NCBI GenBank assembly: GCA_947454955.1
Contig: CANGLW010000015.1
Coordinates: 1-59,756 of the forward strand
From: Comamonadaceae bacterium
GTDB lineage: Bacteria; Pseudomonadota; Gammaproteobacteria; Burkholderiales; Burkholderiaceae_C
Direction of reading: 5' to 3'
Length of the DNA: 59,756 nt
This document shows positions 9,582 through 29,125 of this stretch, one piece after another. The notes beneath the pieces are model-generated. The model did not search any database, was not told the origin of the DNA, and saw nothing but the letters and a program-made list of their open reading frames with translations. How positions within the stretch are numbered: position 1 is the stretch's first letter; the number at the start of each line of letters is the position of its first letter. The translations under genes were made by a program, and so were the position numbers.

Positions 9582-9596
9582 ATCAGTCTCCTTTTT

Positions 9597-14789: not shown

Positions 14790-14791
14790 GT

Positions 14792-15658
14792 GTGAAGAGG
14801 GCTTGCCGCCATATGGGGGTGAGTCGCCAAGCTTACTATCAGGGCCAGCGGCGTCACGCCCAGCGTGAGAGTAGAAGCCAGGCAGTGGTGGGGTTGGTGC
14901 GAGATTGGCGTGTACGACAGCCCCGGCTGGGCACACGCAAGCTGCACCATGTGCTGCGTGAACCTCTGGCGCAGGCGGGCATTGAACTGGGGCGCGATGC
15001 GATGTTTGATGTGCTGCGCAACGCTGGCATGCTGGTGCCGCAGCGACGGGCGTATCACAAGACCACTGAGAGCCATCACCGGTTTCGCCGCCACCCGAAC
15101 CTGCTCAAGGCGGGGGAACAGCAACTGTGCGCTACAGCCAGCGAGCAGGTATGGGTGGCTGACATCACGTACCTGCCCACGAACGACAAGTTCGTTTACT
15201 TGAGCTTGGTCACTGATGCCTACTCGCGCAAGATCGTGGGTTGGCATGTGCACGACAGTTTACAAACCGAGCCGGTGGCACAAGCCTTGAAGATGGCCTT
15301 ACGCGCGCGTCAAAGCGATCAACGCTTGGTGCATCACTCGGATCGGGGCATCCAGTACTGCTCGAACTATTACCAAGCCATTCATCGGCGCCACGGCCTG
15401 CTGTGCTCAATGACCGATGGCTATGACTGTTACCAAAATGCGCTGGCCGAGCGGGTCAACGGCATCCTCAAAGGCGAGTTGCTGTTGCAGCGCCCAGCTG
15501 ATCTGGAGCAAGCAAGGCGGATGGTGCGAGAGTCAGTGCAGATCTACAACGGCGAGCGCCCTCATTTATCGCTGAAAATGCAAACGCCCGATGTGGTACA
15601 TCGGGCGTCTTTGGCCGACATCCGTCGGCTGAGATCACCGTCCCAGGTGTCAACCTAA
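14792..15658 (+). CDS. IS3-family transposase OrfB (DDE integrase domain)
   Basis: The 288-residue catalytic part is normally made as an OrfAB fusion by -1 frameshifting; a GTG at 14792 opens the separate frame. It has an HTH_21-like segment (LGTRKLHHVLRE), then the rve catalytic core with the DDE residues in WVADITYL, HHSDRGIQY and NALAERVNGILKGELL. A C-terminal YNGERPHLSLKMQTP motif is typical of the family. No frameshift or stop interrupts it, so it is probably functional. Confidence 0.95.
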   Translation: MKRACRHMGVSRQAYYQGQRRHAQRESRSQAVVGLVRDWRVRQPRLGTRKLHHVLREPLAQAGIELGRDAMFDVLRNAGMLVPQRRAYHKTTESHHRFRRHPNLLKAGEQQLCATASEQVWVADITYLPTNDKFVYLSLVTDAYSRKIVGWHVHDSLQTEPVAQALKMALRARQSDQRLVHHSDRGIQYCSNYYQAIHRRHGLLCSMTDGYDCYQNALAERVNGILKGELLLQRPADLEQARRMVRESVQIYNGERPHLSLKMQTPDVVHRASLADIRRLRSPSQVST

Positions 15659-15685: not shown

Positions 15686-16573
15686 TTAGCGTGAGGGTGC
15701 AGCCTCTTCGGCAGGATCCACATACACCGTGCCGCCAAACTTCAATGCGGTGTGGTCGCGTGAAGATTGGAACAAGGGGAAGAACATTTGGTGGTACCAA
15801 CGCTCAGCACCAAACAGCTTGTCGTCGATCAGCCCGACGCGCTCGGGGTAATGGCGGGTGATGTGAGCGCTGCCAAAAATCATGTCCCAGATGAACAACA
15901 AATTACCGAAGTTGCCTTTGTAATGCCCCACCCCATCGGCGTTGGTAATGGCGTGGTGTGCCCAATGCGTGGCGGGTGTGGAAATGGTGCGCTCCAACAC
16001 CCACATGACAGGACGCAAAGCGGGGATACGGTAAAGCGGCTCGTCCCAGCGCCAGGCACAGTGCGCGCCCATGATGACGGCCAGCTTGCACACCACATAC
16101 AAGGCGTACACATAGCCGCCCACCCCCAGGTACAACAAACAACCTGCGAACCACAAGCCGGGCATCATCAGGTAGTAAAAGAAATTGTTGCGGAAGGTCA
16201 CGCGGATGCTCATGTACTGCGCCGAATGGTGCGCGCGGTGAAGTGGCCACAACAAGGGCGTGTGCGAGAGGCGGTGCCACCAGTACTGGGTGAGGTCGTC
16301 CGCCAAAATCAACACCCCCACCATGGCCCACCAAGGCCAGTCTGACAGCACGCCCTTGTAAGCAGGTGCCAACCAGTTGCCCAGTTTGCTGGTGACCAAA
16401 ATCGCCAAGGGCTGGGTGATGGCCAGGAGGCTCAAGAACATGAAGAGCTCAAGCTTGGTGTCATTGGCCGTGGCATGCACGGTTTTTTGGTAACGCCGGC
16501 TGGTGTACTCCATCAGGGCAAAGCCCACGATCAACGACAAAACAAGGATGTTCTGAACCTGGTTTGCTTGCAT
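15686..16573 (-). CDS. sterol desaturase / fatty acid hydroxylase superfamily membrane protein
   Basis: A 295-residue integral membrane protein with four or so hydrophobic helices. The di-iron histidine motifs of the superfamily are complete: YWWHRLSHTPLLW (HxxxH), HRAHHSAQYM (HxxHH) and HWAHHAITNADG (HxxHH). Such enzymes hydroxylate or desaturate lipids using O2 and an electron donor; substrate is not predictable. The IS element ends 13 bp from its stop codon but leaves it intact. A GCTA-N9-TAGC repeat (16577-16593) lies directly before its start. Confidence 0.9.
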   Translation of the reverse strand: MQANQVQNILVLSLIVGFALMEYTSRRYQKTVHATANDTKLELFMFLSLLAITQPLAILVTSKLGNWLAPAYKGVLSDWPWWAMVGVLILADDLTQYWWHRLSHTPLLWPLHRAHHSAQYMSIRVTFRNNFFYYLMMPGLWFAGCLLYLGVGGYVYALYVVCKLAVIMGAHCAWRWDEPLYRIPALRPVMWVLERTISTPATHWAHHAITNADGVGHYKGNFGNLLFIWDMIFGSAHITRHYPERVGLIDDKLFGAERWYHQMFFPLFQSSRDHTALKFGGTVYVDPAEEAAPSR

Positions 16574-16576
16574 GCT

Positions 16577-16593
16577 GCTACCTTTTTGTTAGC
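16577..16593. repeat. GCTA-N9-TAGC dispersed motif
   Basis: Imperfect palindrome with AT-rich centre, 4 bp upstream of the desaturase start codon; one of five copies in the window. Confidence 0.7.
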
Positions 16594-16668
16594 AACAATT
16601 TAAGGTGTTTATCAACCTCCAGTCAGAGGGTAAACACCCATAAAGGAAGAGCCAAATGACTTGGAGGT

Positions 16669-17613
16669 TCAGGCCTGCGCCGCGAGTGCGCCTTGCACCA
16701 GCATGGCAGCAGCCAGGTCTTCCAACGCGGTGCCCACCGACTTGAACACGGTGCGCTCTGGCGCGTGCGCTCGGCCCAGATGTTCACCGCGACACAGCGA
16801 TGCCAAATCAGCCCGCACATCTTGCGCGGTGATAACCCCACTGGCCAACGGCCCGAGCAAATCGCCACTTTTCTTCAAGGCCTCAGGCGTGTCCACAAAC
16901 AAAGACGCACCTGCAAAACAAGCGTCATCGACCTCACGCATGGTCGGGGTGAAGCTGCCGATCAAATCCAGGTGCGAACCAGGCTGCAACCACGCACCAC
17001 GCACCACCGGTGTGCTGGCCAAGGTGGCGCAGCTGATGATGTCCGCCTCTTGCACCGCGTCTTGCAAACTGTGTACCGCCTGTGCTTCAAAGCCCTGGGC
17101 TTGCCACAACTGGGCCAAACGCTGCGCTTCTTCCGCTCGGCGTGCCCACACCGAAATGCGCTTCACATCACGCACCGCGCGATAAGCCTGGGGCAACAAA
17201 GCCGCCACACGCCCAGCACCCACCACCAACAAATGCTGTGCATCTTGGCGCGCCAGGTAAGACGCGGCCAATGCAGAAGCTGCCGCGGTGCGGCGCAAGG
17301 TGAGCTCATCGCCATCCATCACGCACAAAGGCACCCCTGTGACCGCATCGTGCAAAAGATAGCTGGCATGCAAACCAGGCAGGCCGCGCGCAGCGTTGGC
17401 CGGGCTCATGTTGATGACCTTGACCCCATAAAACTGCCCCACCACCCAAGCAGGCATGAGCATGGTGGTGAGGACTTCACCACCCGGTGTGTCGATGGGC
17501 AAGATCTGCCGTGCAGGCACGTCGCAACCTTGCGCAAACAAAGCACGCAAAGCAGGCACAAGTTGTTCAAAGGGCAAAGCCCGGGCGATGGTGGCAGCAT
17601 CTATCACGCGCAT
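16669..17613 (-). CDS. ornithine cyclodeaminase / mu-crystallin family protein
   Basis: The 314-residue NAD(P)-dependent enzyme belongs to a family including ornithine cyclodeaminase, alanine dehydrogenase and delta-1-pyrroline-2-carboxylate reductase. Visible are PARQILP and FYGVKVINMSP (substrate-binding Arg and Lys), DGDELTLRRTAAASALAASYLAR, the dinucleotide loop LLVVGAGRVA, and HLDLIGSFTPTMREVDD with the catalytic Asp. Ligand choice cannot be settled from sequence. It stands between the desaturase and the alpha/beta hydrolase on the same strand, with its own spacing and an upstream terminator, so it is probably a separate unit. Confidence 0.88.
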   Translation of the reverse strand: MRVIDAATIARALPFEQLVPALRALFAQGCDVPARQILPIDTPGGEVLTTMLMPAWVVGQFYGVKVINMSPANAARGLPGLHASYLLHDAVTGVPLCVMDGDELTLRRTAAASALAASYLARQDAQHLLVVGAGRVAALLPQAYRAVRDVKRISVWARRAEEAQRLAQLWQAQGFEAQAVHSLQDAVQEADIISCATLASTPVVRGAWLQPGSHLDLIGSFTPTMREVDDACFAGASLFVDTPEALKKSGDLLGPLASGVITAQDVRADLASLCRGEHLGRAHAPERTVFKSVGTALEDLAAAMLVQGALAAQA

Positions 17614-17651
17614 GGATGAGCTTCCTCAAAAGTGCGGTCATCATAAGACGC

Positions 17652-17678
17652 AAAAAAAGCGCCACCGAAGTGGCGCTT
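17652..17678 (-). terminator. strong intrinsic terminator after the secreted alpha/beta hydrolase
   Basis: Reading leftward, AAGCGCCAC and GTGGCGCTT form a 9-bp perfect stem with the loop TTCG, followed by seven T residues. It lies 17 bp after the hydrolase stop codon. Confidence 0.93.
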
Positions 17679-17694
17679 GCTGGCATCGGAAAAA

Positions 17695-18723
17695 TTACTT
17701 CTTGCCGTCCAGAAAAGTTTGCACTTCTTGCATGAGCTTGGTGCGGTTTTTCTCCAGCACGATGGCGTGGGTGCCCTCACCCAGAATCACGTGCTTCTTC
17801 TCGGGCGAATTCACGATCTTGGGAAAGAGTTCTTGTGCCATGTACAGCGGGGTGTCTTGGTCCCACTCGGCGATGATGAGCATCACCGGCACACGAATGT
17901 CTGCGGGGTCGTAGGTGGGCTTGTTGTTCATCCAATACTCACCCAGGTCTTTGATGACGCCATTGGGCGCACGCACCACCGCTGGGGTTTGCTTGGCGCC
18001 TTCAGCGTCTGACACCATGTTGGAAGACCACCATTGCTCGAACCACGCCGAGGGGCTGATCTCTTCAACTTTGGCATCTGGAATACCGCGGATGCCGCGT
18101 GAACGGGCCGAGTCTTTTTGCACGGTGCGGTAAGCACCTGAGCCAGCTACTGGGGGTGGAGCTTTGACAATCCACAACGGCGCATAAAGCACCAGCTTGT
18201 TGATCTTGTCGTTGTTTTGCGTGGTGTAACCCGCCGTGGTGGTGGTGCCCCAAGACCAACCCACCAGGTTGATTTTGGCCACGCCGCGGCGCTGACGGAT
18301 GAAGTCCACCGCGGTGCCGATGTCTTTGATGGCATCGGCTGTGGTGGCAAAGGGCGGGTTGGCCGATGAAGGCTGGCTCATGGACGCAGGGCGTGTGGAC
18401 AAGCCGTAGCCACGCACATCCACCAGGTAAGCGTCATAGCCGAGTTGCGCCACGTACTCCATCCAGCTGCCGCCGGGCAAGTTGATGTCGAACGCGGTTT
18501 CAGACGGGTAAGTGGCACCGTGCACAAACAGCACCACCTTGTCGCCGGTGAACTTGGTTTGGCTGGCCAAGTGCTTGTTGCGCACATAAATTTTCACCCC
18601 GGGCAACTCGGTGTCCAGGTTGAACTCGTTGGTGGTGATTTTCGGGTCGGCCGCAAAGGCCAGAGAGGTCAGCAAAGCCAGGCACAACAGGCCAAGCTTG
18701 CGGGCAATGCAGGTGAATCTCAA
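17695..18723 (-). CDS. secreted alpha/beta hydrolase
   Basis: About 342 residues from a TTG start at 18723, which is preceded by AAGGAGA at the right distance; the longer frame to 18804 gives a poor N-terminus. It begins with a signal peptide (RKLGLLCLALLTSLAFA, cleavage near residue 24) so the enzyme should be periplasmic. The catalytic triad is readable: nucleophile Ser in GWSWGT, Asp in AEWDQDTP and His in GEGTHAIV. The oxyanion segment is VLFVHGATYPSE. It shares strand and neighbourhood with the cytochrome c and the 720-residue haem protein and may hydrolyse an ester or lactone made by them; this role is inferred. Confidence 0.88.
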   Translation of the reverse strand: MRFTCIARKLGLLCLALLTSLAFAADPKITTNEFNLDTELPGVKIYVRNKHLASQTKFTGDKVVLFVHGATYPSETAFDINLPGGSWMEYVAQLGYDAYLVDVRGYGLSTRPASMSQPSSANPPFATTADAIKDIGTAVDFIRQRRGVAKINLVGWSWGTTTTAGYTTQNNDKINKLVLYAPLWIVKAPPPVAGSGAYRTVQKDSARSRGIRGIPDAKVEEISPSAWFEQWWSSNMVSDAEGAKQTPAVVRAPNGVIKDLGEYWMNNKPTYDPADIRVPVMLIIAEWDQDTPLYMAQELFPKIVNSPEKKHVILGEGTHAIVLEKNRTKLMQEVQTFLDGKK

Positions 18724-18839
18724 AGCAGTCTCCTTCTTGTTGACGGCCACAACAGCCAGAACCACCACGCTACGCTTGCAGCTTGTGCATGGCAATGGGG
18801 ACAACCATCAACACCGCCGCCGGCTGTCACCTGGGCGAT

Positions 18840-18863
18840 AAAAAACCGCCCGAAGGCGGTTTT
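18840..18863 (-). terminator. intrinsic terminator after the cytochrome c gene
   Basis: Reading leftward, AAAACCGCC-TTCG-GGCGGTTTT forms a 9-bp stem with a UUCG tetraloop followed by further T residues, 35 bp past the cytochrome stop codon. Confidence 0.92.
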
Positions 18864-18876
18864 GTAAAAACGCAAG

Positions 18877-18892
18877 ACGGGGCATGCCCCGT
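18877..18892. repeat. 16-bp perfect palindrome ACGGGGCATGCCCCGT
   Basis: An uninterrupted GC-rich palindrome 7 bp beyond the cytochrome c stop codon and just before the terminator. It may be a second RNA hairpin or a protein site; nothing else identifies it. Confidence 0.6.
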
Positions 18893-18898
18893 TGCGAA

Positions 18899-19234
18899 TC
18901 AACGCGGTGGCGCGCCTTTGAGCACCCACGTCACCAAGGTCTTGATCTGTTCATCAGGCACTTGGTTGTGGGCTGGCATGGGCACCCTGCCCCACACGCC
19001 AGCACCGCCGTTTTTGATTTTCAAAGACAAGACCGCGGCTGCATCCGCCTGGTCTTTGTACTTGTCGGCCACCGCCTCGAAAGACGGTCCCATCAGCTTG
19101 GCCTTGGCGTTGTGACAAAACATACAACCCAGCAAATTGGCCTGGCCGGCCGCTGCAGCATTGTCTTGCGCAGCTGCCATGCCACTGGCCATCAGGGTGC
19201 TCACACCCAGCAAAAGAGTAGCAATCGTTTTCAT
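18899..19234 (-). CDS. monohaem cytochrome c
   Basis: 111 residues with a Sec signal (MKTIATLLLGVSTLMASGMAAA, cleaved around residue 22) and one haem c motif CMFCH near residue 37-41. The distal ligand is probably the Met in RVPMPAH. It is of the same class as the 13955-14257 cytochrome and should move electrons in the periplasm. It begins 22 bp after the stop of the 720-residue haem protein gene and is surely co-transcribed with it, so it is the likely electron acceptor of that protein. Confidence 0.93.
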   Translation of the reverse strand: MKTIATLLLGVSTLMASGMAAAQDNAAAAGQANLLGCMFCHNAKAKLMGPSFEAVADKYKDQADAAAVLSLKIKNGGAGVWGRVPMPAHNQVPDEQIKTLVTWVLKGAPPR

Positions 19235-19256
19235 GGCTTAGAAACTTTCCTTAAAC

Positions 19257-21419
19257 TCAGTTCGCCAGTGGGTGAGGACGCATTTGAACCTTGAAGACTT
19301 TAGGACGTGCCTCGGTGCCGCCTTCGCCATGGAAGTTCGCGCGGGTGCCTGAGGTGGTCCAGAAGCCGCGGCCTTTCCAGCCGGCTTTGGGGTTGTCGAT
19401 GCGACCGTCAGCGTTCTTGGTGAAGAAGCCCAAGGGGTAAGGCACGCGCAGGCTGACCCACTCACCTTTGACCAAAGCCAACAAGGCTTCGCCGCCATTG
19501 GTCAGCGCAATCGGCACGTCCTTGCCCAAGCCCAAGGCGTTGTCCACGTCCACAGCAATGTAGTAAGCGTGTTCAGCGCTGCCATTGGGGTCGTTCACGT
19601 TCTTGAACTGAGGGCCAGGGAAGCGGTGGATGGTCCAACCTTCGGGGCAATGCTTGCCTGTGGCTGCAGCCGCACCGGTCATCGGGCCTTTGCACTTGCT
19701 GCGGTCAAAGCTTGACATCTGGCCGCTGGAGAGCACCGACCACACCACGCCTTTGGAGTCGATGTCCAAGCCGCGCAGACCATAGTAGCCCTCTGGCGGC
19801 TGGAAGATTTCAGCCAAAGCGGTGTTGGTCGGGTCGCTGCCGGGGATCATGCGGATCAAGAAGCTGGGTTGGTCCACGCGTGAGAAGCCCACGTCCATGG
19901 ACTGGCCCCACACCGAGTTGTCCAGCGGGCTGGTTTGCACGCCGTAAAAACCGGTCATCACACGCTTGTCTTTGCTCGCGTCTTCGGGTTGGCCCAGGTC
20001 GGTGTAGGCATCACGTTTGCCGTTGCCGTTGAAGTCCAACACGATGGGGGTCCAGCCTTGCGACTTTTCCTCATCTTTGGTTTCCAGGTATTTCTTGGTG
20101 TCGAGCCAACCCACAGCACTGAAGCCTGGGCCGCCGGCACTGGTCCACAAGATGTTGTTCTTGTCACGCGAGAAATACAGGTGGTGGGTGGTGAAGCAAG
20201 TGCTGATGAGCGACCACTCTTTTTTGGCTGGGTCGTACATCGAGAGCTGACGCACCGACTCGTTCAAAGGCAGCACCTTGGCCGAGGGGTGTGAAGAACC
20301 TGCTTTGCAGAAGTCAGGGTTGGCAAAGGGGCGCACACGGGCCGAGAACCACACGCGACCGGCTTCGTCCATCACGTTGTTGTGGATGCTGGTGTGGCCG
20401 TCCCAAATGGCTTCATCACCCCAGTAAGCGGAAGGACCTTTGGGCTGTTCTTTTTGACCGAACAATTTCGGGTCGCGGTAGGGGTGCACCACCTCGCCAG
20501 CTTTGTGGTTGACCGGGTCCAGGTAAGGCACGCGGTCGGTGGACTCTTCAGGTGAGCCCCAGAACAAACCGTTGGGGTTGATGCGGCCATTGCGCTTGTC
20601 AGACGACACACCATCGTGCAAGTAGTACTTGGCGTTGGAGTAGTCCCACATGGTATAGACCGCGTTGCGCTCCACGCCTTGCGGACGCTTGGGTTTGTCA
20701 AAAGGCAGTGCGCCTTTTTCAATCTTGTCGGTCCAATCGGCGAACAACTCCAGGCCTTTATCAGGACCGAGGCGACCGAGGGCCACACCCATGTAAGCCA
20801 TGGCTTGACCGGCTTGGGTACGGTGTGCCCAGGCCAGGAAAGAATCGCCATTGGCTTTCTTCTTGTAGAAATCAGACATGGTGCGCATGCCTTCAGAGCC
20901 CAGCGCGTGGCAGGACTGGCAGCTGTTCTTGACGGTGTCGACCCAGTAGGACTGTTTTTTCAAGTTGGTGGGAATACCGTTGCCCTTGTCACCCGTGCCT
21001 GGAAAGTCAGACTCTTTGGGGATGTCGAGCAAGGTGTACCAGTACATGCCGGGGTAGTACTGCGCAGCTGATTTTTCATCGGGCGCGATCACGGCTTTGA
21101 GGTCGAGTTGTTGACCAGGCTTGGCGGTCACCTTGGGCGAGTCGACCAGGCCATAGCCACGCACCCACACCTGGTAGTTGGCCGAAGGCATCTCGGGCAA
21201 GAGGTAGCGGCCCTTGTCATCGGTCACCACAATCTTAGCGAACTTGGTGGGCAGGTCTTTGGTTTCAGCAATGACCCACACGCCAGCCTCCGGACCTTGC
21301 GGACCAGTGACCACGCCGCCGATGTCTTTCTTCGACACATTGACCGCAGGGCCGGCATGCGCCAGGCCAGCCAAACACGCTGCGAACAGCGCCGATAAAA
21401 CCCATACTTTTCTTTTCAC
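19257..21419 (-). CDS. secreted haem c protein with carboxypeptidase-regulatory-like domain and probable beta-propeller
   Basis: 720 residues. A Sec signal (to AHA, residue 22) is followed by an Ig-like/CarboxypepD_reg-type domain (about 30-110: GVVTGPQGPEAGVWVIAET, DDKGRYLLPEMP). A single haem c site, CQSCH, is at residues 167-171. The rest (about 240-700) has repeats of the form G-x-VWFS, NILWTSAGG, NSVWGQS and GVVWSVLSSG that recall virginiamycin-lyase-like beta-propellers. I do not know a characterised member. The layout suggests a periplasmic redox enzyme or electron-transfer scaffold. It leads an operon with a cytochrome c and is divergent from membrane and hydrolase genes that may share its pathway. 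Function unknown. Confidence 0.85.
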   Translation of the reverse strand: MKRKVWVLSALFAACLAGLAHAGPAVNVSKKDIGGVVTGPQGPEAGVWVIAETKDLPTKFAKIVVTDDKGRYLLPEMPSANYQVWVRGYGLVDSPKVTAKPGQQLDLKAVIAPDEKSAAQYYPGMYWYTLLDIPKESDFPGTGDKGNGIPTNLKKQSYWVDTVKNSCQSCHALGSEGMRTMSDFYKKKANGDSFLAWAHRTQAGQAMAYMGVALGRLGPDKGLELFADWTDKIEKGALPFDKPKRPQGVERNAVYTMWDYSNAKYYLHDGVSSDKRNGRINPNGLFWGSPEESTDRVPYLDPVNHKAGEVVHPYRDPKLFGQKEQPKGPSAYWGDEAIWDGHTSIHNNVMDEAGRVWFSARVRPFANPDFCKAGSSHPSAKVLPLNESVRQLSMYDPAKKEWSLISTCFTTHHLYFSRDKNNILWTSAGGPGFSAVGWLDTKKYLETKDEEKSQGWTPIVLDFNGNGKRDAYTDLGQPEDASKDKRVMTGFYGVQTSPLDNSVWGQSMDVGFSRVDQPSFLIRMIPGSDPTNTALAEIFQPPEGYYGLRGLDIDSKGVVWSVLSSGQMSSFDRSKCKGPMTGAAAATGKHCPEGWTIHRFPGPQFKNVNDPNGSAEHAYYIAVDVDNALGLGKDVPIALTNGGEALLALVKGEWVSLRVPYPLGFFTKNADGRIDNPKAGWKGRGFWTTSGTRANFHGEGGTEARPKVFKVQMRPHPLAN

Positions 21420-21605
21420 GTTATGTCCTCTGCAGTTGCCAAAAATGTTGGAAAGGACAATCTAGGCGCAATTGATCAAAAGCGCACGCGGGATTTCCCT
21501 ATAAGTTGTAGGCACATTATTTTTAACAATGAATGTGTTGAAAATGAAACCTCAAAGATGTGCAGCAAGTTGCTGCGCACGTCCTGATGTCTTGACTACA
21601 ACCAC
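21420..21605. promoter_or_regulatory. divergent control region of the haem-protein cluster
   Basis: The 186-bp AT-rich spacer separates the leftward haem protein gene from the rightward membrane-protein operon. It contains ACATTATT facing AATGAATGT (21512-21534), an imperfect inverted repeat with one unpaired base, and TTGATCAA near 21471. These could bind a regulator, but no regulator gene is adjacent and no clear sigma-70 promoter stands out. Confidence 0.4.
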
Positions 21606-22112
21606 ATGAGCCCTCTGTACGATCTCTTCTCTGAAAATGCGTTCTGGACACTGCTGCTCATCCTTCACGGCTTGCTGGCCGTGGCCTTGCTGGGTGCGTT
21701 AACCCATCAAGCGATGGCCGTTGCTTGGCCCCTTCAACGCGGCCAGTTGCCTGCTGACTTTGTAAGTCGATTCCGCGCCGTGGCTGCGCCGCGTTACGCC
21801 AATGCGGTGTGCATTTTGTGGGTCTTGTGCTTTGTGTTGGGTGGCTGGATTTACGCGCAGTACCGCATCACGGTGCGCATCCCGATTGAGCAACAAGAGT
21901 TCTTCAAAACACTGGGTGCGTTTGAACTCAAAGAACACCTGGCCGTCTTTGGCCTGGGCTTGCTGCCCTTCTACCGTTACTTGTGGCGTTTTGCAAATAC
22001 AGCGAGCGACCTGGTCGCGCGCAAGTGGATCACCGTCTTTTTGTGTGCGGTGTGCTGGTACACCTTTTTGGCAGGTCATGTGGTCAACAATGTTCGGGGG
22101 TATGGTTCATGA
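21606..22112 (+). CDS. membrane protein with four helix-associated histidines (cytochrome b-like?)
   Basis: 168 residues with four hydrophobic segments (about 13-38, 64-88, 108-127, 140-160). Histidines H21, H34, H111 and H158 lie in or near them, a spacing that could hold haem b, but I cannot match a named family with certainty. It resembles small membrane partners of secreted redox proteins. The next gene overlaps its stop codon (ATGA). First gene of the rightward operon and divergent from the haem c protein, it may link that protein to the quinone pool. Confidence 0.7.
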   Translation: MSPLYDLFSENAFWTLLLILHGLLAVALLGALTHQAMAVAWPLQRGQLPADFVSRFRAVAAPRYANAVCILWVLCFVLGGWIYAQYRITVRIPIEQQEFFKTLGAFELKEHLAVFGLGLLPFYRYLWRFANTASDLVARKWITVFLCAVCWYTFLAGHVVNNVRGYGS

Positions 22113-22468
22113 GCACAGAGTTCGAGCCCACAGGTTCTGAGCGTCAGCGCGTGTTTGCGTTGGTGTTCGCGCCTTGCGTGGCGCTGTTGTATTGGGTCAG
22201 CGACGTGTGGCGTTTTCCTACCTTCAGTTACTACCCAGCCAGTGGTCTGTACACATGGGGTTGGACACCATCCACACCCGATGACGGCCCGGCCATGTAC
22301 TGGTACGGGTGGATCGTCACCTCGGCCCTGGGTGCCGCGTTGATCGCAGGCTTGGTGAGCGCATTGCCTGCGTCCGTGACGCGCAAGATCCCCGCATCGT
22401 TGTCTTGGTTGGTGCCCACCCTGCTGGTGCCTGCCATGTTGTATTCCCTCAAGTTTTATTGGCGCTGA
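22109..22468 (+). CDS. three-helix membrane protein of unknown function
   Basis: 119 residues from the ATG that overlaps the previous stop. Three hydrophobic segments (about 15-34, 67-87, 95-116) are joined by a periplasmic-looking loop rich in Trp, Tyr and Pro (FPTFSYYPASGLYTWGW). No family recognised. The 4-bp overlap with the four-helix protein implies translational coupling and probably one membrane complex. Confidence 0.7.
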   Translation: MSTEFEPTGSERQRVFALVFAPCVALLYWVSDVWRFPTFSYYPASGLYTWGWTPSTPDDGPAMYWYGWIVTSALGAALIAGLVSALPASVTRKIPASLSWLVPTLLVPAMLYSLKFYWR

Positions 22469-22489
22469 AGTGCGCAAGGCTCAACAACC

Positions 22490-22861
22490 ATGAATCATGT
22501 GCGTACTTTGGCAGCGTTGCTGGCCTGCCTGATAGCCTGCCCTGTGTGGGCCGGTGGCGTGGACGAAAACCCCGGTGACGATACCGGCAAAGAAGGCCCT
22601 GCCTTTTTTGGTTTTGTGCGTGAAGAACGTGGCTCCAACATCGGGCGAGCTACCGTCACCCTGCAACCCAAATCAGGCAGCGCAGTCAATGTGCAAGCCA
22701 ACATCATGGGCGTTTACCGCACCCATGTGAACCCGACGGCTAAAGCCGACGATGTCACCATCACCTGCAGCAAAGCCGGTTACAAACAAACCCGGGTGGT
22801 GCGTCGCGCATCAACCTCTGGGCGCGTGGTTGAAACCGACTGCATGATGCAAAAACTTTGA
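22490..22861 (+). CDS. small secreted protein with Ig-like carboxypeptidase-regulatory-type fold
   Basis: 123 residues: a Sec signal (MNHVRTLAALLACLIACPVWA, cleaved near residue 21) then one beta-sandwich-like domain (GFVREERGSNIGRATVTLQPK, GVYRTHVNP, KAGYKQTRVV). The pattern resembles the N-terminal domain of the 720-residue haem protein across the divergent spacer. Two Cys in the mature part (TITCSKAG, TDCMMQ) could form a disulfide. It may be an accessory or docking subunit. Its stop overlaps a TTG start of the amidohydrolase frame. Confidence 0.72.
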   Translation: MNHVRTLAALLACLIACPVWAGGVDENPGDDTGKEGPAFFGFVREERGSNIGRATVTLQPKSGSAVNVQANIMGVYRTHVNPTAKADDVTITCSKAGYKQTRVVRRASTSGRVVETDCMMQKL

Positions 22862-22872
22862 CCCTGCCGGCC

Positions 22873-24549
22873 ATGCCTGCCTGGCTTGCCCGCTCACTTG
22901 CCCTGTGCCTGAGCGCATGGGTGCTGGCAAGCAACGCGCATGGCACGGCCGACACGGTGTTGCTCGGTGGCCAGGTGCTGCAATTCGACGGGCCGCCTGC
23001 ACAGGCTCTGGCCATCCAGGGCGAGCGCATTGTGGCCGTGGGCACCGACGCACACATCAAGTCATTAGCTGGCCCCCACACTCGCCAGATAGCACTGCAA
23101 GGCCGCACCGTCATCCCGGGTTTGATCGACTCGCACATCCATGCCATCCGTGCGGGCTTGACTGAGATGACCGAGGTGAGTTGGATCGGGGCTGCCTCGA
23201 TTGAAGAAGGCTTGGCGCGACTGCGCGAAGCTGCGCACCACCAGCCTGCAGGCAGCTGGTTGATCGTCGCGGGTGGTTGGACGGAAAACCAATTCAAAGA
23301 AAAACGTCGCCCCACCCAAGAAGACATTGCCAAGGTCAGCCCTGAGCACCCTATCTACATCCAATGGGCTTACAGCGGGCTGATGTTGTCGCCGCTAGGG
23401 CTAGAAAAATCAGGGCTCTTGCAACAGGCTGAATTAGCTTCGCACCTCACACCCGAACGTGACCCACAAGGCCGTGACACCGGTTGGTTGTTGGGCACCG
23501 CGCGCACCGTGAGCGATGTGTACAACCTGCTGCCCCGCCCCAACAGCCAAGCGCAAGCGCAAGGTGTGAAGCAGTTTTTTCAAAAGCTCAGCGCACTGGG
23601 TGTGACAGGCGTGATTGACCCCGGTGGTTACAACCTGCCCATGGACGCTTATGAACCGCTGCAAGCGGTGTGGCGCACACAGGGTTTACCGGTGCGTGTG
23701 GCCTTCAGCATCTCTGCGCCCAGGCGCGGTCATGAGTTGGAAGACTTTGCCAAGCTCACCGCGCTGCTGCCCATGGGCCTGGGCAACGCCAGCTTGAAAT
23801 TCAATGGCTTGGGTGAGAACGTCACTTGGGGCATGTACAACAACGAAAAGCCCACCGCGGACGATGAAGCTGGTTTGACCCAAGTCTTGCAGTGGGCTGC
23901 TGCGCGTGGCTTGGGGGTGACCTTCCACTGGAACACCGAAGACAACGTGGCGCACCTGCTGCGCGTGCTGGAAGCGGTGCATGCACAAACACCGCTGCAA
24001 AGTTTGCGCTGGTCGATTGCGCACCTCAACAACGCGTCTGTCGACACGCTCAAGCGCATGAAGGCGATGAACATCGGCTGGCTGGTGCAAAACGCCAGCT
24101 ACTACCAATACCCGCAGTTCGAAAAAAAATACGGCGTGAAAGCTGCGCACATGCCACCCATCAGCACCGCTTTGTCACTGGGCTTGAGCGTTGGTGCTGG
24201 TACCGATGCCCACCGCGTGATGAGCTACAACCCTTTTGTCGCTGTGCAATGGCTGATGGACGGTCGCACGGTGGATGGCCAAACCACACGGCAAGGGCAT
24301 GAGCTGCTGGACCGCATGCAAGCTTTGAGCCTCTACACCCGCGGCAGCGCCTGGTTCGCGCATGACGACGCGCAGCGTGGCGAATTAAAACCCGGTTACT
24401 TGGCCGACCTGGCGGTGCTGGACCAAGATTATCTGCGCATGCCTGAGCAAAAAATTCACACCTTGCGCTCTTTGCTCACTATGGTGGGTGGGCAGGTGAA
24501 GCACGCTGCAGGCCCCTACGCACAACAACAGACTTCAACACAACCCTGA
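22873..24549 (+). CDS. exported amidohydrolase, YtcJ-like (amidohydrolase 3 family)
   Basis: About 558 residues from ATG 22873; a TTG at 22858 would overlap the previous stop and is an alternative. The N-terminus is a signal peptide (ARSLALCLSAWVLASNAHG), so it is unusual for this family in being periplasmic. Metal ligands: HxH in GLIDSHIHAIR, His in WSIAHLNNAS, and the C-terminal GAGTDAHRVMSYNPFVAVQWLM with Asp/His. The family hydrolyses amide or cyclic bonds of diverse small molecules. Placed between the secreted small protein and a second alpha/beta hydrolase, it probably acts on the cluster's substrate or a product. Confidence 0.87.
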   Translation: MPAWLARSLALCLSAWVLASNAHGTADTVLLGGQVLQFDGPPAQALAIQGERIVAVGTDAHIKSLAGPHTRQIALQGRTVIPGLIDSHIHAIRAGLTEMTEVSWIGAASIEEGLARLREAAHHQPAGSWLIVAGGWTENQFKEKRRPTQEDIAKVSPEHPIYIQWAYSGLMLSPLGLEKSGLLQQAELASHLTPERDPQGRDTGWLLGTARTVSDVYNLLPRPNSQAQAQGVKQFFQKLSALGVTGVIDPGGYNLPMDAYEPLQAVWRTQGLPVRVAFSISAPRRGHELEDFAKLTALLPMGLGNASLKFNGLGENVTWGMYNNEKPTADDEAGLTQVLQWAAARGLGVTFHWNTEDNVAHLLRVLEAVHAQTPLQSLRWSIAHLNNASVDTLKRMKAMNIGWLVQNASYYQYPQFEKKYGVKAAHMPPISTALSLGLSVGAGTDAHRVMSYNPFVAVQWLMDGRTVDGQTTRQGHELLDRMQALSLYTRGSAWFAHDDAQRGELKPGYLADLAVLDQDYLRMPEQKIHTLRSLLTMVGGQVKHAAGPYAQQQTSTQP

Positions 24550-24568
24550 ATCAACAAGGAGACAACTC

Positions 24569-25480
24569 ATGGCAACCACCTGGACCGGCGGCGAAGAACA
24601 TTGGACCCACAAGGGCGATGTCAAATTATTTCTCTGGCATCGCAAAGCCGCTGCCAACGTGCCTTTTGCGGGCACCTTGTTGTTTGTGCATGGCTCGTCC
24701 ATGGCCTCACAACCCACGTTTGATTTGACCGTGCCTGGCCGCCCCGATTCGTCGGCCATGCAGTGGTTTGCCGAGCGCGGCTTTGACACCTGGACGGTGG
24801 ACCATGAGGGCTATGGGCGCTCAAGCAAACACCGCGAGATCAACTGCGACATCAGCAACGGCGCCGATGACCTCAAGGCCGCCACCGATTACATCCACAG
24901 CCTCAAAGGCCCGGTGAAATTCGATGTGTACGGCATTTCCTCAGGCGCCTTGCGTGCGGCCATGTTTGCAGAGCGCCACCCCGAACGCGTGAACAAGTTG
25001 GCCTTGGATGCGTTTGTGTGGACCGGCGAAGGCAGTCACACCTTGGAGAACCGCCGTAAGAAACTGCCAGAGTTTCTGGCAAAAAATCGCCGTCCGATTG
25101 ACCGCGCTTTTGTACAAAGCATCTTCGACCGCGACCACCCTGACACGGCCGACCAAGCCACCATCGAAGCCTTTGCCCAAGCCATTTTGACGCTGGACAG
25201 CTCCATGCCCACCGGCACCTATGTGGACATGTGCTCTAGGCTGCCTGTGGTGAACCCCGAGAAAATCAATGTGCCCACTTTGATTTTGCGTGGCGAGTTC
25301 GATGGCATTGCCAGCTTTGAAGACTTGATCGCTTTCTACGGCAAGCTGCCTCACGCGAACAAACAATTCAGCGTGATGAAAGGCATCTCGCACGCCAGCT
25401 TTCAGCAGAAGAATTACAAAATGGTGTACCACCTGCTGCACAGCTACCTGACCATGCCCGAGCCGGTCTACGTGGGCTGA
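24569..25480 (+). CDS. alpha/beta hydrolase (cytoplasmic)
   Basis: 303 residues, no signal peptide, so it should act inside the cell. The catalytic residues are readable: HGSSMAS (oxyanion hole), nucleophile Ser in YGISSGALRAA, Asp in RGEFDGIAS and His in GISHASFQ. AAGGAGA lies just upstream of ATG 24569. It starts 19 bp after the amidohydrolase and is followed 3 bp later by a TctC gene, so it belongs to the same operon. It may split an ester or C-C bond in the imported intermediate; substrate unknown. Confidence 0.88.
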   Translation: MATTWTGGEEHWTHKGDVKLFLWHRKAAANVPFAGTLLFVHGSSMASQPTFDLTVPGRPDSSAMQWFAERGFDTWTVDHEGYGRSSKHREINCDISNGADDLKAATDYIHSLKGPVKFDVYGISSGALRAAMFAERHPERVNKLALDAFVWTGEGSHTLENRRKKLPEFLAKNRRPIDRAFVQSIFDRDHPDTADQATIEAFAQAILTLDSSMPTGTYVDMCSRLPVVNPEKINVPTLILRGEFDGIASFEDLIAFYGKLPHANKQFSVMKGISHASFQQKNYKMVYHLLHSYLTMPEPVYVG

Positions 25481-25483
25481 GCC

Positions 25484-26455
25484 ATGACACGCTCCACATG
25501 GACACGTTGGCTCTGTCTGGTTATGGGTTTGTGCATACCCGTCATCAGCACAGCGCAGACCTACCCCACCAAGGTGGTCAAAATCATTGTGCCCACCGCG
25601 CCTGGTGGCTTCACCGATGTGGTGGCCCGACTGGTCGGGCAAAAGCTCTCGGCAAGTTTGGGCCAACAGGTGGTGATAGAAAACAAACAAGGCGCGGGCT
25701 CGACCATCGGTGCTGATGCGGTGGCCAAGGCTGCGCCCGATGGCCACACCTTGTTGATGAGCTCGACCACCCATGTGCTGGGCCAAGCGGTGTATGGCCG
25801 CTTGCCTTATGACCCGATCAAGTCCTTCACGCCAGTGGCCAAGCTGGTGGATTCGGCGTATGTGCTGGTGGTCAACACCAAGACCGATTTCAAGACGGTG
25901 CAAGACCTGATCAACTTCGCCCGCACACACCCCGAGCAAATTCACTACGCCTCTTCGGGCAATGGCAGTTCGCAGCACCTCATGGGCGCCATGTTCTGCG
26001 CGATGACCAACGTCAAACTCAAGCATGTGCCTTACCGCGGCAGCGCCGGTGCCACCACCGACTTGCTGGCCGGTGTGGTGGAGACCAGCTTTGCGGGTCT
26101 GCCCAATGTCTTGTCCTTGATTCAGCAAGGCAAGCTGCGCGCCTTGGCGGTCACCACCGCTAAGCGCATTGAGCAGCTGCCCGATGTGCCCACCTTGAGT
26201 GAGGCCGGGGTGAGTGGCTATGACGCGTCCATTTGGCTCGCCTTGTTAGCACCAGCTGGCACACCGCCTGAGATCGTGCAGCGCCTCAACAAAGACCTGA
26301 TGCGCAGCATGACCAGCACGGATGCCAGCAAGACCATGTTCGATGTGGGCGTGAGCCTGTCATTGCTCAGCCCGGCAGACACGGGCGAGATGATGGTGAG
26401 TGAGATGCAACGTTGGAGCAAAGTGATCCGCGACAACCACATCAAACCGGAGTGA
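25484..26455 (+). CDS. tripartite tricarboxylate transporter receptor (TctC/Bug family), first of a tandem pair
   Basis: The 323-residue periplasmic binding protein has a Sec signal (WLCLVMGLCIPVISTAQT, cleaved near residue 25). Bug motifs are YPTKVVKIIVPTAPGGFTDVVAR, IENKQGAGSTIGADAVAKA and VPYRGSAGATTDLLAG. Its ATG lies 3 bp after the hydrolase stop. TctC proteins commonly bind organic acids, including aromatic carboxylates. There is no TctAB membrane pair in the window, so it would have to use one encoded elsewhere or act as a sensor. Confidence 0.92.
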   Translation: MTRSTWTRWLCLVMGLCIPVISTAQTYPTKVVKIIVPTAPGGFTDVVARLVGQKLSASLGQQVVIENKQGAGSTIGADAVAKAAPDGHTLLMSSTTHVLGQAVYGRLPYDPIKSFTPVAKLVDSAYVLVVNTKTDFKTVQDLINFARTHPEQIHYASSGNGSSQHLMGAMFCAMTNVKLKHVPYRGSAGATTDLLAGVVETSFAGLPNVLSLIQQGKLRALAVTTAKRIEQLPDVPTLSEAGVSGYDASIWLALLAPAGTPPEIVQRLNKDLMRSMTSTDASKTMFDVGVSLSLLSPADTGEMMVSEMQRWSKVIRDNHIKPE

Positions 26456-26480
26456 TGGCCGATTGACTAGGAGTGAACGC

Positions 26481-27443
26481 ATGAGAATCTCTCTTCTCTT
26501 GGGTGCTTTGCTGTGCTGCTTAGGTCTGGCACAGGCCCAAACCACGAACTTTCCGAACAAGCCGGTACGCATCATCGTGCCCTTCCCTGCGGGTGGCTCG
26601 GCAGACACCTTGGTGCGTGTGGTGGGACAAGGTTTGACGCGCCGCTGGAACCAGTCGGTGGTGATCGACAACCGCCCAGGCGGCGGCACGGTGATTGCCG
26701 GTGCGTTAGCGGCCAAAGCGCCTGCTGACGGCTACACCCTGCTGGTGATCGCCAACAGCTTGACCATCAACGCCAAGCTGCGCACCAACCTGCCCTACGA
26801 TGCCCTCAAAGCTTTTGACCCGGTGGCCATGCTGGTGCATTCGCCTCAGGTGATCGCGGTGAACAGCGCCAGCCCTTACAAAACCCTGGCCGAACTCTTG
26901 AACGAGGCCAAAGCCAAACCTGGCAGCCTGACCTATGCCACGGTAGGGCCGGCCACCACGCAGCACATCGCAGGTGAATCGTTCAAACGACTCACCGGCA
27001 CCGACTTCACTTACGTGGCATACACCGGTGGGGCTTTGGCGGCCAACGCGGTCTTGGGTGGCCATGTGAACATGGTGCTGACCAACTTGAGCGAGGTGGT
27101 TGGCATGCTCGAGGCCGGCAAGCTTCGACCTTTGGCGGTGACCACCCGCGAACGGCTCGATGCGCTGCCGCAAACACCCACCGTGATGGAATCAGGCTAC
27201 AAAGACTACGAAGCGGTGGTGTGGTTTGCCTTGGGCGCACCCGCAGGCACGCCACCTGACATCGTTCAAAAGTTGTCTGAAGACCTGCGTGCCACCTTGG
27301 CCGAACCCGACATCAAACAAAAGCTGGTGGGTGCGGGCCTGTACCCTGCGTTTCAAGGCCCCGCTGCGCTGGCCAACCACATCCAGCAAGAGTACCAACG
27401 CTACAGCCGCGTGATCGACGAGGCGCGGATCAAGCTGGACTGA
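26481..27443 (+). CDS. tripartite tricarboxylate transporter receptor (TctC/Bug family), second of a tandem pair
   Basis: About 320 residues. ATG 26481 is preceded by AGGAG at the right spacing; the frame opens further up at TTG 26463. The signal peptide is MRISLLLGALLCCLGLAQA. Motifs: FPNKPVRIIVPFPAGGSADTLVR, IDNRPGGGTVIAGALAAKA and VAYTGGALAANAVLGG. It clearly belongs to the same family as the preceding gene but is not a recent duplicate, so the pair probably binds different ligands. Confidence 0.92.
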   Translation: MRISLLLGALLCCLGLAQAQTTNFPNKPVRIIVPFPAGGSADTLVRVVGQGLTRRWNQSVVIDNRPGGGTVIAGALAAKAPADGYTLLVIANSLTINAKLRTNLPYDALKAFDPVAMLVHSPQVIAVNSASPYKTLAELLNEAKAKPGSLTYATVGPATTQHIAGESFKRLTGTDFTYVAYTGGALAANAVLGGHVNMVLTNLSEVVGMLEAGKLRPLAVTTRERLDALPQTPTVMESGYKDYEAVVWFALGAPAGTPPDIVQKLSEDLRATLAEPDIKQKLVGAGLYPAFQGPAALANHIQQEYQRYSRVIDEARIKLD

Positions 27444-27473
27444 GCGCTTCACCGCTGAGGACCAGACCCTGTG

Positions 27474-27503
27474 CAGGCCGCACCATTACAGTGGTGCAGC
27501 CTG
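27474..27503. other. long hairpin after the second TctC gene
   Basis: CAGGC-x-GCACCA and TGGTGC-x-GCCTG pair around the loop TTACAG, 11 base pairs with one mismatch. There is no T tract, so it may be a transcript-stabilising or Rho-type end rather than an intrinsic terminator. GGTGCA...TGCACC repeats occur again just downstream. Confidence 0.45.
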
Positions 27504-27672
27504 TCTACTTTGGTGCATCGCAAAGTCTGAATGCACCTGACAGGGCACATGCAGCGCCAGCCACGCGCGCGTCTACCCTGCAGCTGGATCAACTTGAATT
27601 GGGCATGAAGGTTGCTAACTCTTTAACGAGACGACCCTTGTTTCGATTCCCTCATTTTGAAAGGTTGACCAC

Positions 27673-28806
27673 ATGACCAAGCCGTTGATTGGCCAAGACA
27701 CATCCAGCAGCGCCCCCGCTACAGCTCGCCGTCACCTCCTGAAATTAGGTGTGTTGGGCGCGACCGCAGCGGCGGTTGCCAAACCTGCGTTTTCTCAAGT
27801 CGGCCCCAACATCCGTTGGCGCCTGGCATCGAGCTTTCCCAAGAGCTTGGACACCATTTACGGTGGCGCTGAGGTGTTGGCCAAACGCTTGAGCGAAATC
27901 ACCGGCGGTAAATTTCAAATCAGCGTGCACGCTGCTGGCGAATTGATGCCGGCTTTCGGTGTGGTGGATGCTTTGCAAACCGGCTCCATCGAATGCGCAC
28001 ACACCGCGTCTTACTACTTTGTGGGTAAGAACCGTGCCTTCGGCTTTGAAACCACCCTGCCCTTCGGCCTGAACCAGCGTCAACAAAACGCCTGGATCTA
28101 TTACGGCGGCGGCCTGCAACTGGTGCGCGATTTTCTGCGCGACTACAACATCGTCAATTTCCCCGGCGGTAACACTGGCGTTCAAATGGGCGGTTGGTTC
28201 AAGAAGGAAATCAAAACGCTGGCCGACCTCAAGGGCATGAAAATGCGCATCCCCGGCATCGGTGGCGAGATCATGTCCAGGCTGGGTGCGGTGCCCCAAC
28301 AGATCCCTGGTGGCGAGATTTACCAAGCGCTTGAAAAAGGCACGATCGACGGCGCCGAGTGGGTGGGCCCCTATGACGATGAAAAACTGGGACTGTACAA
28401 AGTGGCCAGCCACTACTACTACCCCGGCTGGTGGGAAAGCAACTCCATGTACTCGTTCTATGTGAACGCCAAGGCATGGGAGTCATTGCCCAAGGATTAC
28501 CAGGCTGCGTTCGCTGCGGCTGCTGCTGAAGCCAACATCGACATGATGGCCGAGTACGACTTCAAAAACCCCACCGCTTTGAGACGCTTGGTGGGCAACG
28601 GTGTGAAGCTGCATGCTTACAGCACCGAGATCATGAAGGCCGCACAAACCTCTGCCTTTGAGTTCTACGCTGAAGAGTCAGAGAAGAACCCAGCGTTTCG
28701 CAAGATCTATGAGCCCTGGCTCAAGTTCCGCAACGACATCTTGGTGTGGCACCGTTTTGCTGAGAACACGTACAGCAACTTCGTGTTCAACAACCCCATC
28801 AAGTGA
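27673..28806 (+). CDS. TRAP transporter substrate-binding protein (DctP family), Tat signal
   Basis: The 377-residue periplasmic receptor starts at ATG 27673 and has a twin-arginine signal (ARRHLLKLGVLGATAAA, ending FSQ near residue 42). Family segments: IRWRLASSFPKSLDTIYGGAEVLAKRL, LADLKGMKMRIPGIGGEIMSRLGAVP and GTIDGAEWVGPYDDEKLGLYK, the last holding the substrate-contact region of the TAXI/DctP fold. It resembles the mannitol/haloaromatic or keto-acid-type TRAP receptors, but no ligand can be named. No DctQ/DctM genes are nearby, so this receptor is orphaned here. A strong terminator follows. Confidence 0.92.
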   Translation: MTKPLIGQDTSSSAPATARRHLLKLGVLGATAAAVAKPAFSQVGPNIRWRLASSFPKSLDTIYGGAEVLAKRLSEITGGKFQISVHAAGELMPAFGVVDALQTGSIECAHTASYYFVGKNRAFGFETTLPFGLNQRQQNAWIYYGGGLQLVRDFLRDYNIVNFPGGNTGVQMGGWFKKEIKTLADLKGMKMRIPGIGGEIMSRLGAVPQQIPGGEIYQALEKGTIDGAEWVGPYDDEKLGLYKVASHYYYPGWWESNSMYSFYVNAKAWESLPKDYQAAFAAAAAEANIDMMAEYDFKNPTALRRLVGNGVKLHAYSTEIMKAAQTSAFEFYAEESEKNPAFRKIYEPWLKFRNDILVWHRFAENTYSNFVFNNPIK

Positions 28807-28843
28807 TACCAACAGGCGCCTTGAGCGCCTGGGTCGAGACCAA

Positions 28844-28873
28844 AAAAAAGCACCCAGAATCTGGGTGCTTTTT
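28844..28873 (+). terminator. intrinsic terminator after the TRAP receptor gene
   Basis: AGCACCCAG pairs with CTGGGTGCT around AAT, with A-rich and T-rich flanks that lengthen the stem (AAAA/TTTT). It works in the rightward direction and ends 5 bp before tRNA-Cys, and also bounds the leftward tRNA transcript. Confidence 0.92.
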
Positions 28874-28878
28874 CATTT

Positions 28879-28952
28879 TGGAGGCGCGGGCCGGAGTCGA
28901 ACCGACCTACACGGATTTGCAATCCGGTGCATAACCGCTTTGCTACCGCGCC
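28879..28952 (-). tRNA. tRNA-Cys (GCA)
   Basis: The 74-nt cloverleaf includes the encoded CCA (28881-28879). Acceptor stem GGCGCGG/CCGCGCC, anticodon loop TTGCAAA with anticodon GCA, T arm GGTTCGACTCC. It is separated from tRNA-Gly by 37 bp holding a strong terminator hairpin. Confidence 0.97.
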
Positions 28953-28955
28953 GTG

Positions 28956-28983
28956 AAAAAAGGGAAGCGTTTGCTTCCCTTTT
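28956..28983 (-). terminator. terminator hairpin between tRNA-Gly and tRNA-Cys
   Basis: Reading leftward, AAAAGGGAAGC and GCTTCCCTTTT pair over 11 bp around AAAC and are followed by TT. It looks like a full intrinsic terminator placed inside the two-tRNA unit, 6 bp after the tRNA-Gly CCA and 3 bp before tRNA-Cys. Confidence 0.88.
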
Positions 28984-28989
28984 CAAAAC

Positions 28990-29065
28990 TGGAGCGGGAA
29001 AAGAGTCTCGAACTCTCGACCTCAACCTTGGCAAGGTTGCGCTCTACCAACTGAGCTATTCCCGC
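28990..29065 (-). tRNA. tRNA-Gly (GCC)
   Basis: The 76-nt cloverleaf includes the encoded CCA. Acceptor stem GCGGGAA/TTCCCGC, D arm GCTCAGTTGGTAGAGC, anticodon loop with GCC, and T arm with GTTCGAGAC. A perfect TATAAT box lies 15 bp upstream. Confidence 0.97.
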
Positions 29066-29079
29066 GTTTCAAGCCTTAA

Positions 29080-29085
29080 ATTATA
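29080..29085 (-). promoter_or_regulatory. -10 box of the tRNA-Gly promoter
   Basis: A perfect TATAAT on the minus strand places the start at about 29073, 8 nt before the mature tRNA. The -35 region is weak. A GC-rich CGGG discriminator-like run precedes rather than follows it. Confidence 0.7.
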
Positions 29086-29125
29086 GCCCGAAAATTTCCG
29101 GTTTGCAGGCCAAGGCTAAAAAATT

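Follow-up and report, generated by a model that had tools for sequence, protein, structure and literature searches.

The 59,756-nucleotide stretch of DNA analysed here (the window) is contig 15 of a 2.78-Mb genome assembly of a Comamonadaceae bacterium, and at positions 17695-27443 it carries ten genes grouped around a secreted haem protein of 720 residues, which we call P720. The locus raises the question of what such a protein does in the company of a small cytochrome c, two membrane proteins (memA and memB), a small secreted Ig-like protein, hydrolases and solute receptors. A first-pass annotation made from the sequence had suggested that a compound is oxidized outside the cytoplasm, that electrons pass by way of the cytochrome and a possible membrane haem protein, and that the product is hydrolysed and imported. 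The best reading of the results described here is that the block encodes a cytochrome-containing system for periplasmic oxidation, built from families that are unnamed in the libraries and literature searched. More specifically, we tentatively favour, at somewhat below even confidence, an accessory and probably horizontally acquired periplasmic catabolic unit, consisting of P720 as the core, the membrane set and often an amidohydrolase, in which a substrate would be oxidized, electrons routed onward, and the product hydrolysed and taken up. The first-pass annotation had known of no named pathway with this gene set, and this agrees with our searches: the family and fold libraries used (Pfam, NCBIfam and PDB) name none of P720, memA and memB, and no paper on the gene set was found in literature searches, some of which covered only the top of longer result lists.

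The block is a natural unit: of two species of the genus that were compared, one has all of it and the other none. In G1046, the close relative without it, 248 bp separate the two flanks, versus 9,983 bp in the window. Identity to G1046 is 82.2% in the left flank (window 15698-17653) and 87.2% in the right flank (27637-32455), and the interval in between encloses exactly the ten genes and no other listed gene. The presence or absence of the block was determined for this one genome pair, as among 21 genomes of the genus the left flank occurred only in the window's own genome and in G1046. Gain by horizontal transfer is the simplest reading and probably the correct one, with loss in G1046 as the alternative; the base composition of the block genes is like that of the rest of the window. 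All ten genes were found open where the first-pass annotation had placed them, and its family assignments were backed by Pfam wherever a match occurred (signal peptides were judged by eye):

17695..18723, minus strand: ABH1, exported alpha/beta hydrolase outside the conserved core (Pfam Abhydrolase_1, 60.1 bits)
18899..19234, minus strand: small monohaem cytochrome c with signal peptide (Pfam PF00034, 29.5 bits, cut-off 21.3)
19257..21419, minus strand: P720, secreted 720-residue haem protein (domains, alignment, AlphaFold2 model)
21420..21605, no strand: divergent P720/memA intergenic region with an imperfect inverted repeat seen by eye, tgtgcagcaagttgctgcgca
21606..22112, plus strand: memA, four-helix membrane protein (alignment and model)
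22109..22468, plus strand: memB, small membrane protein (no Pfam match)
22490..22861, plus strand: small secreted Ig-like protein (carboxypeptidase-regulatory match under the gathering score)
22858..24549, plus strand: exported metal-dependent amidohydrolase, Amidohydro_3 (PF07969, 248.9 bits, above the cut-off of 29.7)
24569..25480, plus strand: ABH2, cytoplasmic alpha/beta hydrolase (Pfam Hydrolase_4, 72.7 bits)
25484..26455, plus strand: TctC-type solute receptor 1 (PF03401, 242.8 bits, cut-off 27)
26463..27443, plus strand: TctC-type solute receptor 2 (PF03401, 232.3 bits, cut-off 27)
17654..27636: whole block, without counterpart in the close species G1046 (flank comparison)

P720 had been read as an Ig-like domain, one CQSCH site and a propeller, and this architecture is borne out by domain matches, an invariant motif and an AlphaFold2 model: a carboxypeptidase-regulatory or Ig-like domain (about residues 33-110) is followed by a cytochrome c domain (about 115-252) and a seven-bladed propeller (about 253-713). 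The first domain scores 25.4 of 32.3 bits in the window protein, below gathering, and was matched at E<=0.1 in 62/62 relatives of the P720 alignment (62 sequences). The single CxxCH is CQSCH (C167-H171), and C167, C170, H171 and M210 are invariant in all 62 aligned relatives. P720 therefore has the CxxCH and distal Met of a class-I cytochrome c, with H171 and M210 as predicted axial ligands, and Pfam cytochrome models match the relatives weakly (PF13442 in 15/62, PF00034 in 2/62). Within the propeller, H268, H346, H413, Y492 and Y619 are invariant in 62/62 and R549 is conserved in 61/62; C576, C591 and H697 are also invariant in the 62 aligned sequences, H697 being replaced by Leu in three more distant rows (G130, G221 and Microvirga). 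The strands of the model (mean pLDDT 91.9, pTM 0.90), when grouped by eye, form seven four-strand blades with the ring closed by strand 253-259. The innermost strand begins with H346 in blade 2, H413 in blade 3 and Y492 in blade 4; in blades 5 and 6 its second position is occupied by R549 and Y619, respectively, and in blade 1 it is immediately preceded by H268. With this placement, the conserved propeller residues may meet on the axis. No Pfam family was matched by P720 above its cut-off, NCBIfam gave no match, and sequence searches of solved structures gave nothing usable. None of the best 50 of 970 Foldseek matches in the PDB covers the full protein, the highest query TM-score listed being 0.33; the top match by E-value is a chain of the haem enzyme hydrazine synthase (5c2v_B, 6.7e-08, query TM-score 0.26, 10% identity), a likeness at the fold level only.

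Relatives of P720 are numerous. They are encoded in at least 526 of 595 pattern-matched stretches of the genome collection, where one P720 gene may yield two stretches, and the best 80 were kept; by their record titles these belong to Proteobacteria, Acidobacteria, Rokubacteria and Gemmatimonadetes, presumably also to Bacteroidetes as read from genus names, and are mostly metagenome-assembled genomes (MAGs). In the one annotated record examined, P720 is called a regulatory-domain protein, with no function given. Counting the window's own genome, P720 was found in 1/26 genomes of the genus (the window's own), in 3/250 genomes of a family sample and in 3/369 of a class sample, one of these being partial and three candidates being scored per genome. 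Among 72,556 plasmid records, one (Microvirga ossetica) encodes P720, with other neighbours, and none encodes memA; 33 pattern-matched stretches of viral contigs encode no P720 relative.

For partner genes, 83 P720 loci (L006-L088) were surveyed, many of which end early at contig ends, and genes in these relatives are plain longest-open-reading-frame calls, which are noisy in high-GC DNA. Clustering of the neighbours gave one cluster (c4) that was read as reading frames antisense to P720 and set aside, and another (c9), found in several P720 loci, that represents a shorter cytochrome-Vgb family with an Ig domain, mostly a CxxCH and a propeller. Five of six scanned c9 members lie above the cut-off of Pfam Vgb_lyase (PF24684), and one matches virginiamycin B lyase structures with E 1.5e-28. 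The P720 and c9 profiles align over 450 columns covering all three domains (hhalign, probability 99.8%, E 1.6e-27), and P720 is therefore a long branch of the cytochrome-Vgb superfamily; in the window's genome, P720 is the sole match to the c9 profile. P720 shares the propeller type and blade motif of the virginiamycin B lyase family (PDB 2qc5, 2z2n), whose seven blades recur in the P720 model as judged by eye, but it adds a cytochrome c and an Ig domain and misses the family cut-off, which most of the shorter relatives scanned pass. This kinship, together with a fold match of P720 to the propeller lactonase 7ris (E 3.5e-06), might point to a Vgb-type lyase or lactonase with a regulatory or structural haem, a reading that we regard as very doubtful. 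Vgb_lyase is not listed for the window protein at E<=1 and was matched in only 1/62 relatives (E 0.048, below cut-off). In addition, the one shorter relative compared, that of locus L022, has Arg and Tyr at the positions of two lyase blade histidines, so that lyase chemistry is doubtful. In a published description, polar Mg and substrate residues of Vgb lyase are located in blades 6-7 (PMC8916777). An identity of P720 as Vgb lyase was not accepted on these grounds. An identity as quinoprotein was rejected as well, since the pyrroloquinoline quinone (PQQ) propeller families PF01011 and PF13360 are not among the seven families matched by the 62 relatives at E<=0.1. The quinohaemoprotein alcohol dehydrogenases (PF01011 plus cytochrome c) resemble P720 as secreted fusions of propeller and c-type cytochrome that act in periplasmic oxidation, whereas P720 has no PQQ domain match and carries its cytochrome between the Ig domain and the propeller.

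The first-pass annotation had proposed asking whether the gene set is conserved as a unit, and this turned out to be the case for a core of it. Both memA and memB occur near P720 in 12/83 loci (L007-L013, L022, L060, L069, L074 and L076), accompanied by the small Ig protein in 11 of the 12 (L011 ends before Ig) and by the amidohydrolase in 9/12; ABH1 and the TctC receptors are not part of this pattern. The recurrent order in other genomes is P720, memA, memB, Ig, amidohydrolase. In 11/12 linked loci P720 comes first and on the same strand as the membrane genes, the exception being L060 with the membrane set 9 kb upstream of P720; the divergent layout noted by the first-pass annotation is thus true of the window and of one further locus (L113) and is not general. 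Co-occurrence was determined for 50 of the 83 loci, representing 47 genomes, with all memA candidates scored. memA was present in all 5 linked genomes and in 13/42 others, in two of which it lies beside a second P720 copy (L112, L113). In broad background samples, which share genomes and for which up to 9 candidates were scored per genome, memA was found in 1/368 genomes of the class sample and 0/397 of the phylum sample, the window's own genome being left out, and a search at equal depth in 78 class genomes (G250-G327; G461 and G579 were added deliberately, outside the 78) gave 0/78. Fisher tests yielded p = 2.9e-07 for 13/42 versus 0/78, p = 3.7e-06 for 11/42 versus 0/78, and p = 2.7e-13 for 13/42 versus the class sample of lower depth (1/368); the ratio of the excess is not to be pressed because the background is unmatched in taxonomy and the P720 genomes span several phyla. 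The background genome with memA (G461) is not among the P720 matches of the class sample.

These data bear on the objection that a rare P720 merely stands beside ordinary receptors and hydrolases. P720 often does occur apart from these partners, and ABH1, ABH2 and TctC are not conserved; scattered homologues had been named by the first-pass annotation as grounds for abandoning its proposal, and in part they are scattered, 71/83 P720 loci being without memA. However, the core gene order recurs, co-occurrence exceeds the background at equal depth, and the whole block is missing from G1046, which leaves a chance neighbourhood hardly credible. It is rejected for P720, memA, memB, Ig and the amidohydrolase, and this rejection does not extend to ABH1, ABH2 and TctC.

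The membrane proteins themselves match no Pfam family above cut-off, and NCBIfam gave no match for memA or for the memB-frame reading frame, the latter scanned from an upstream start. In 24 aligned memA rows, H21, H34, E107, K109 and E110 are invariant and H158 occurs in 22/24, with Tyr in two. The memA model (mean pLDDT 86.6) consists of four long helices and places H21 and H34 in helix 1, E107, K109 and E110 in helix 3 and H158 in helix 4. The small Ig protein has two Cys, C93 and C118, which are invariant in 9 rows. Among 14 further memA loci, memB was labelled in 12, Ig in 9, the amidohydrolase in 7, c9 in 3 and P720 in 2. L091 in G461 (6420-11073) is a variant without P720 that encodes a cytochrome-Vgb protein, an exported flavin amine oxidase, memA, memB and Ig. 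The P720, c9 and L091 contexts taken together indicate that the trio of memA, memB and Ig goes with both kinds of propeller cytochrome and with varying enzymes.

An association with two propeller-cytochrome classes, whatever the adjoining enzyme, would be expected if memA, memB and Ig were maturation factors that insert haem or metal into propeller cytochromes and not electron carriers. The faint resemblances of memA fit this idea: both DUF420 and CtaA have roles in the haem maturation of oxidases, and of 17 families hinted at by Pfam, DUF420 appears in 4/24 memA members (best E 0.18) and COX15-CtaA in 1/24 (E 0.012). Foldseek gave nothing significant for memA (best E 0.31), the matches including, alongside unrelated helical proteins, chains of cytochrome oxidase (which we take to be subunit III), STEAP1 and cytochrome b561. 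None of the family and fold hints is significant, so memA was not assigned to DUF420/CtaM, CtaA or cytochrome b561. Moreover, 29/42 unlinked P720 genomes, many of them MAGs, have no memA match, so that P720 can apparently be made without memA. We therefore consider a maturation role unlikely.

Nearby genes in other loci raise the question of where the electrons would come from. PQQ alcohol dehydrogenase genes lie near P720 in 5/83 loci (L045, L046, L056, L067 and L073) and in the further locus L152, as called by Pfam for L046, L056 and L152 and by tblastn for the others, and L046 also encodes a GMC oxidoreductase (Pfam). In L152 (G579), two PQQ alcohol dehydrogenase-like genes (Pfam) and a third seen by eye are no more than about 10 kb away from the P720 relative, which is adjoined by a zinc alcohol dehydrogenase-like gene. 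The PQQ dehydrogenases fit a role of P720 in periplasmic oxidation. They would also be in line with P720 being an electron relay and docking protein, its haem being reduced by other enzymes of the periplasm such as a PQQ alcohol dehydrogenase, a flavin amine oxidoreductase or a GMC enzyme. In L091 a flavin amine oxidase gene stands between the cytochrome-Vgb gene and memA, and there is precedent for such a pair: flavin amine dehydrogenases with a cytochrome acceptor are described in published work (PMC9396064, PMC10611581, PMC12224317), and CycN accepts electrons from NicA2. NicA2/CycN can thus serve as a model for the L091 variant, in which an exported flavin amine oxidase lies beside a cytochrome, whereas the window block has no such flavoenzyme and no dehydrogenase of the other families named. 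The propeller histidines and other axial residues are invariant, which is more than a relay seems to need, and an excess of PQQ dehydrogenases near P720 is unsupported with control regions uncounted. Taken together, a pure relay appears somewhat unlikely. CycN is not known to have a propeller.

The best-supported reading of P720 is broader, namely that it would take electrons from a compound or from a partner dehydrogenase and pass them on via its haem. Under the catabolic reading that we favour, the substrate would be an organic compound, possibly an amide or an ester, that binds over the propeller face of P720 and is oxidized at or next to the conserved ring of H268, H346, H413, Y492, Y619 and R549. 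The electron would then move to the P720 haem (H171/M210) and on to the small cytochrome c, and may enter the membrane via memA and memB or via the ordinary respiratory chain, while the product would be cleaved by the amidohydrolase and the hydrolases and captured by the TctC receptors for import. There is a hint, and no more, of a nitrogen-bearing substrate, given by the amidohydrolase and by the flavin amine oxidase of L091. In its boldest form this scheme would make P720 an undescribed class of haem-c enzyme, which oxidizes its substrate on a propeller of the Vgb type and uses neither PQQ nor flavin, the reaction taking place at a metal or radical site formed by the axial trio H268, H346 and H413, and which delivers electrons to memA and memB as proteins unrelated to known acceptors; this we consider quite improbable.

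Several observations weigh against the catabolic scheme. The haem is the sole redox cofactor site identified in P720, and the window block contains no dehydrogenase of a known kind. Haem or quinone binding by memA is a guess, drawn for haem from the conserved histidines, since neither a family nor a fold match is significant. Relatives of the window-type cytochrome adjoin P720 in 5/83 loci only (L009-L013), and TctC matches occur in 20/83 at no fixed place. The 71/83 loci that are without memA are so in the DNA covered, many being cut by contig ends, and the MAGs among the 29/42 unlinked genomes lacking a memA match are of unstated completeness; G579, with two P720 copies, and G277, with a partial P720, gave no memA at full depth. 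With so many P720 genomes giving no memA match, memA is not obligatory for P720. On a P720 tree of 70 rows, 8 gains or losses suffice to explain which rows are linked, versus a mean of 15.4 with shuffled labels; well-supported branches force at least 5 of the 8, and this counts in favour of the linkage. The linked rows thus cluster beyond shuffled labels, and the linkage is therefore partly due to shared descent.

The hydrolases and receptors at the ends of the block have a looser standing: neither of the two alpha/beta hydrolases is a conserved partner, nor are the TctC receptors, and all four are connected to the core only by the presence or absence of the block. No clear orthologue of ABH1 was found in the 83 P720 loci, three weak matches being relatives of ABH2, and ABH2 relatives occur in 3/83 (L012, L013 and L036). 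The cytochrome c and the secreted hydrolase that had been described as companions of P720 are real by their Pfam matches, but the start of ABH1 is probably the TTG at 18723, preceded by an AAGGAG Shine-Dalgarno sequence seen by eye, and not 18804. A likely terminator, found by eye and partly backed by a terminator scan, separates ABH1 from the cytochrome gene, and ABH1 is therefore probably its own transcription unit. Both receptors pass the cut-off of the tripartite tricarboxylate transporter family PF03401; inspection by eye of the block reading frames, the part of the genome covered, revealed no TctA- or TctB-like permease. On the other strand, the memA and memB reading frames overlap by 4 bases. 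The P720/memA intergenic region holds a promoter-like site on the minus strand (21544-21516), in a scan whose total is close to that of shuffled sequence (3 versus 2.4; terminators likewise, 16 versus 12.8). The imperfect inverted repeat listed above lies at about 21555-21580 and is a possible regulator site.

Other genes recur near P720 elsewhere. NMT1 receptors in L060, L071, L119 and L122 are 46-54% identical to that of L113, and an exported BD-FAE hydrolase is found in L009, L012, L013 and L113, no control regions being counted for either. An HbpS/GlcG-like gene lies near P720 in four loci: L009, L012 (1807-2313; Pfam), L013 and L027. The region upstream of P720 in L060 (734-9184) encodes three cytochrome-Vgb-type paralogues, one without CxxCH, a monohaem cytochrome, the memA trio and an NMT1 receptor. 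Around the block in the window, the fatty-acid hydroxylase (15686-16573), OCD (16669-17613) and DctP (27673-28806) genes were rejected as members, as they lie in flanks that G1046 keeps. The DctP-type receptor (Pfam), an orphan, is located directly to the right of the block. A transposase pair on the plus strand (14376-15658), with a helix-turn-helix match below cut-off and an rve integrase core, lies outside the block to the left of the fatty-acid hydroxylase and OCD genes, and we take it to be IS3-like. Two tRNA genes on the minus strand (28882-28952 and 28993-29065) are found between DctP and lon, about 1.2 kb to the right of the block, in the flank kept in G1046.

Among known systems, the polyvinyl alcohol (PVA) degradation set of PVA dehydrogenase, cytochrome c and oxidized-PVA hydrolase likewise brings together a haem dehydrogenase, a cytochrome and a hydrolase, whereas the block has a propeller of a different family and, in addition, a membrane pair and an amidohydrolase. 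By tying P720 to the membrane trio and to periplasmic enzymes, the analysis gives the family a testable function. If the propeller itself were the catalyst, P720 would represent a new haem-enzyme architecture.

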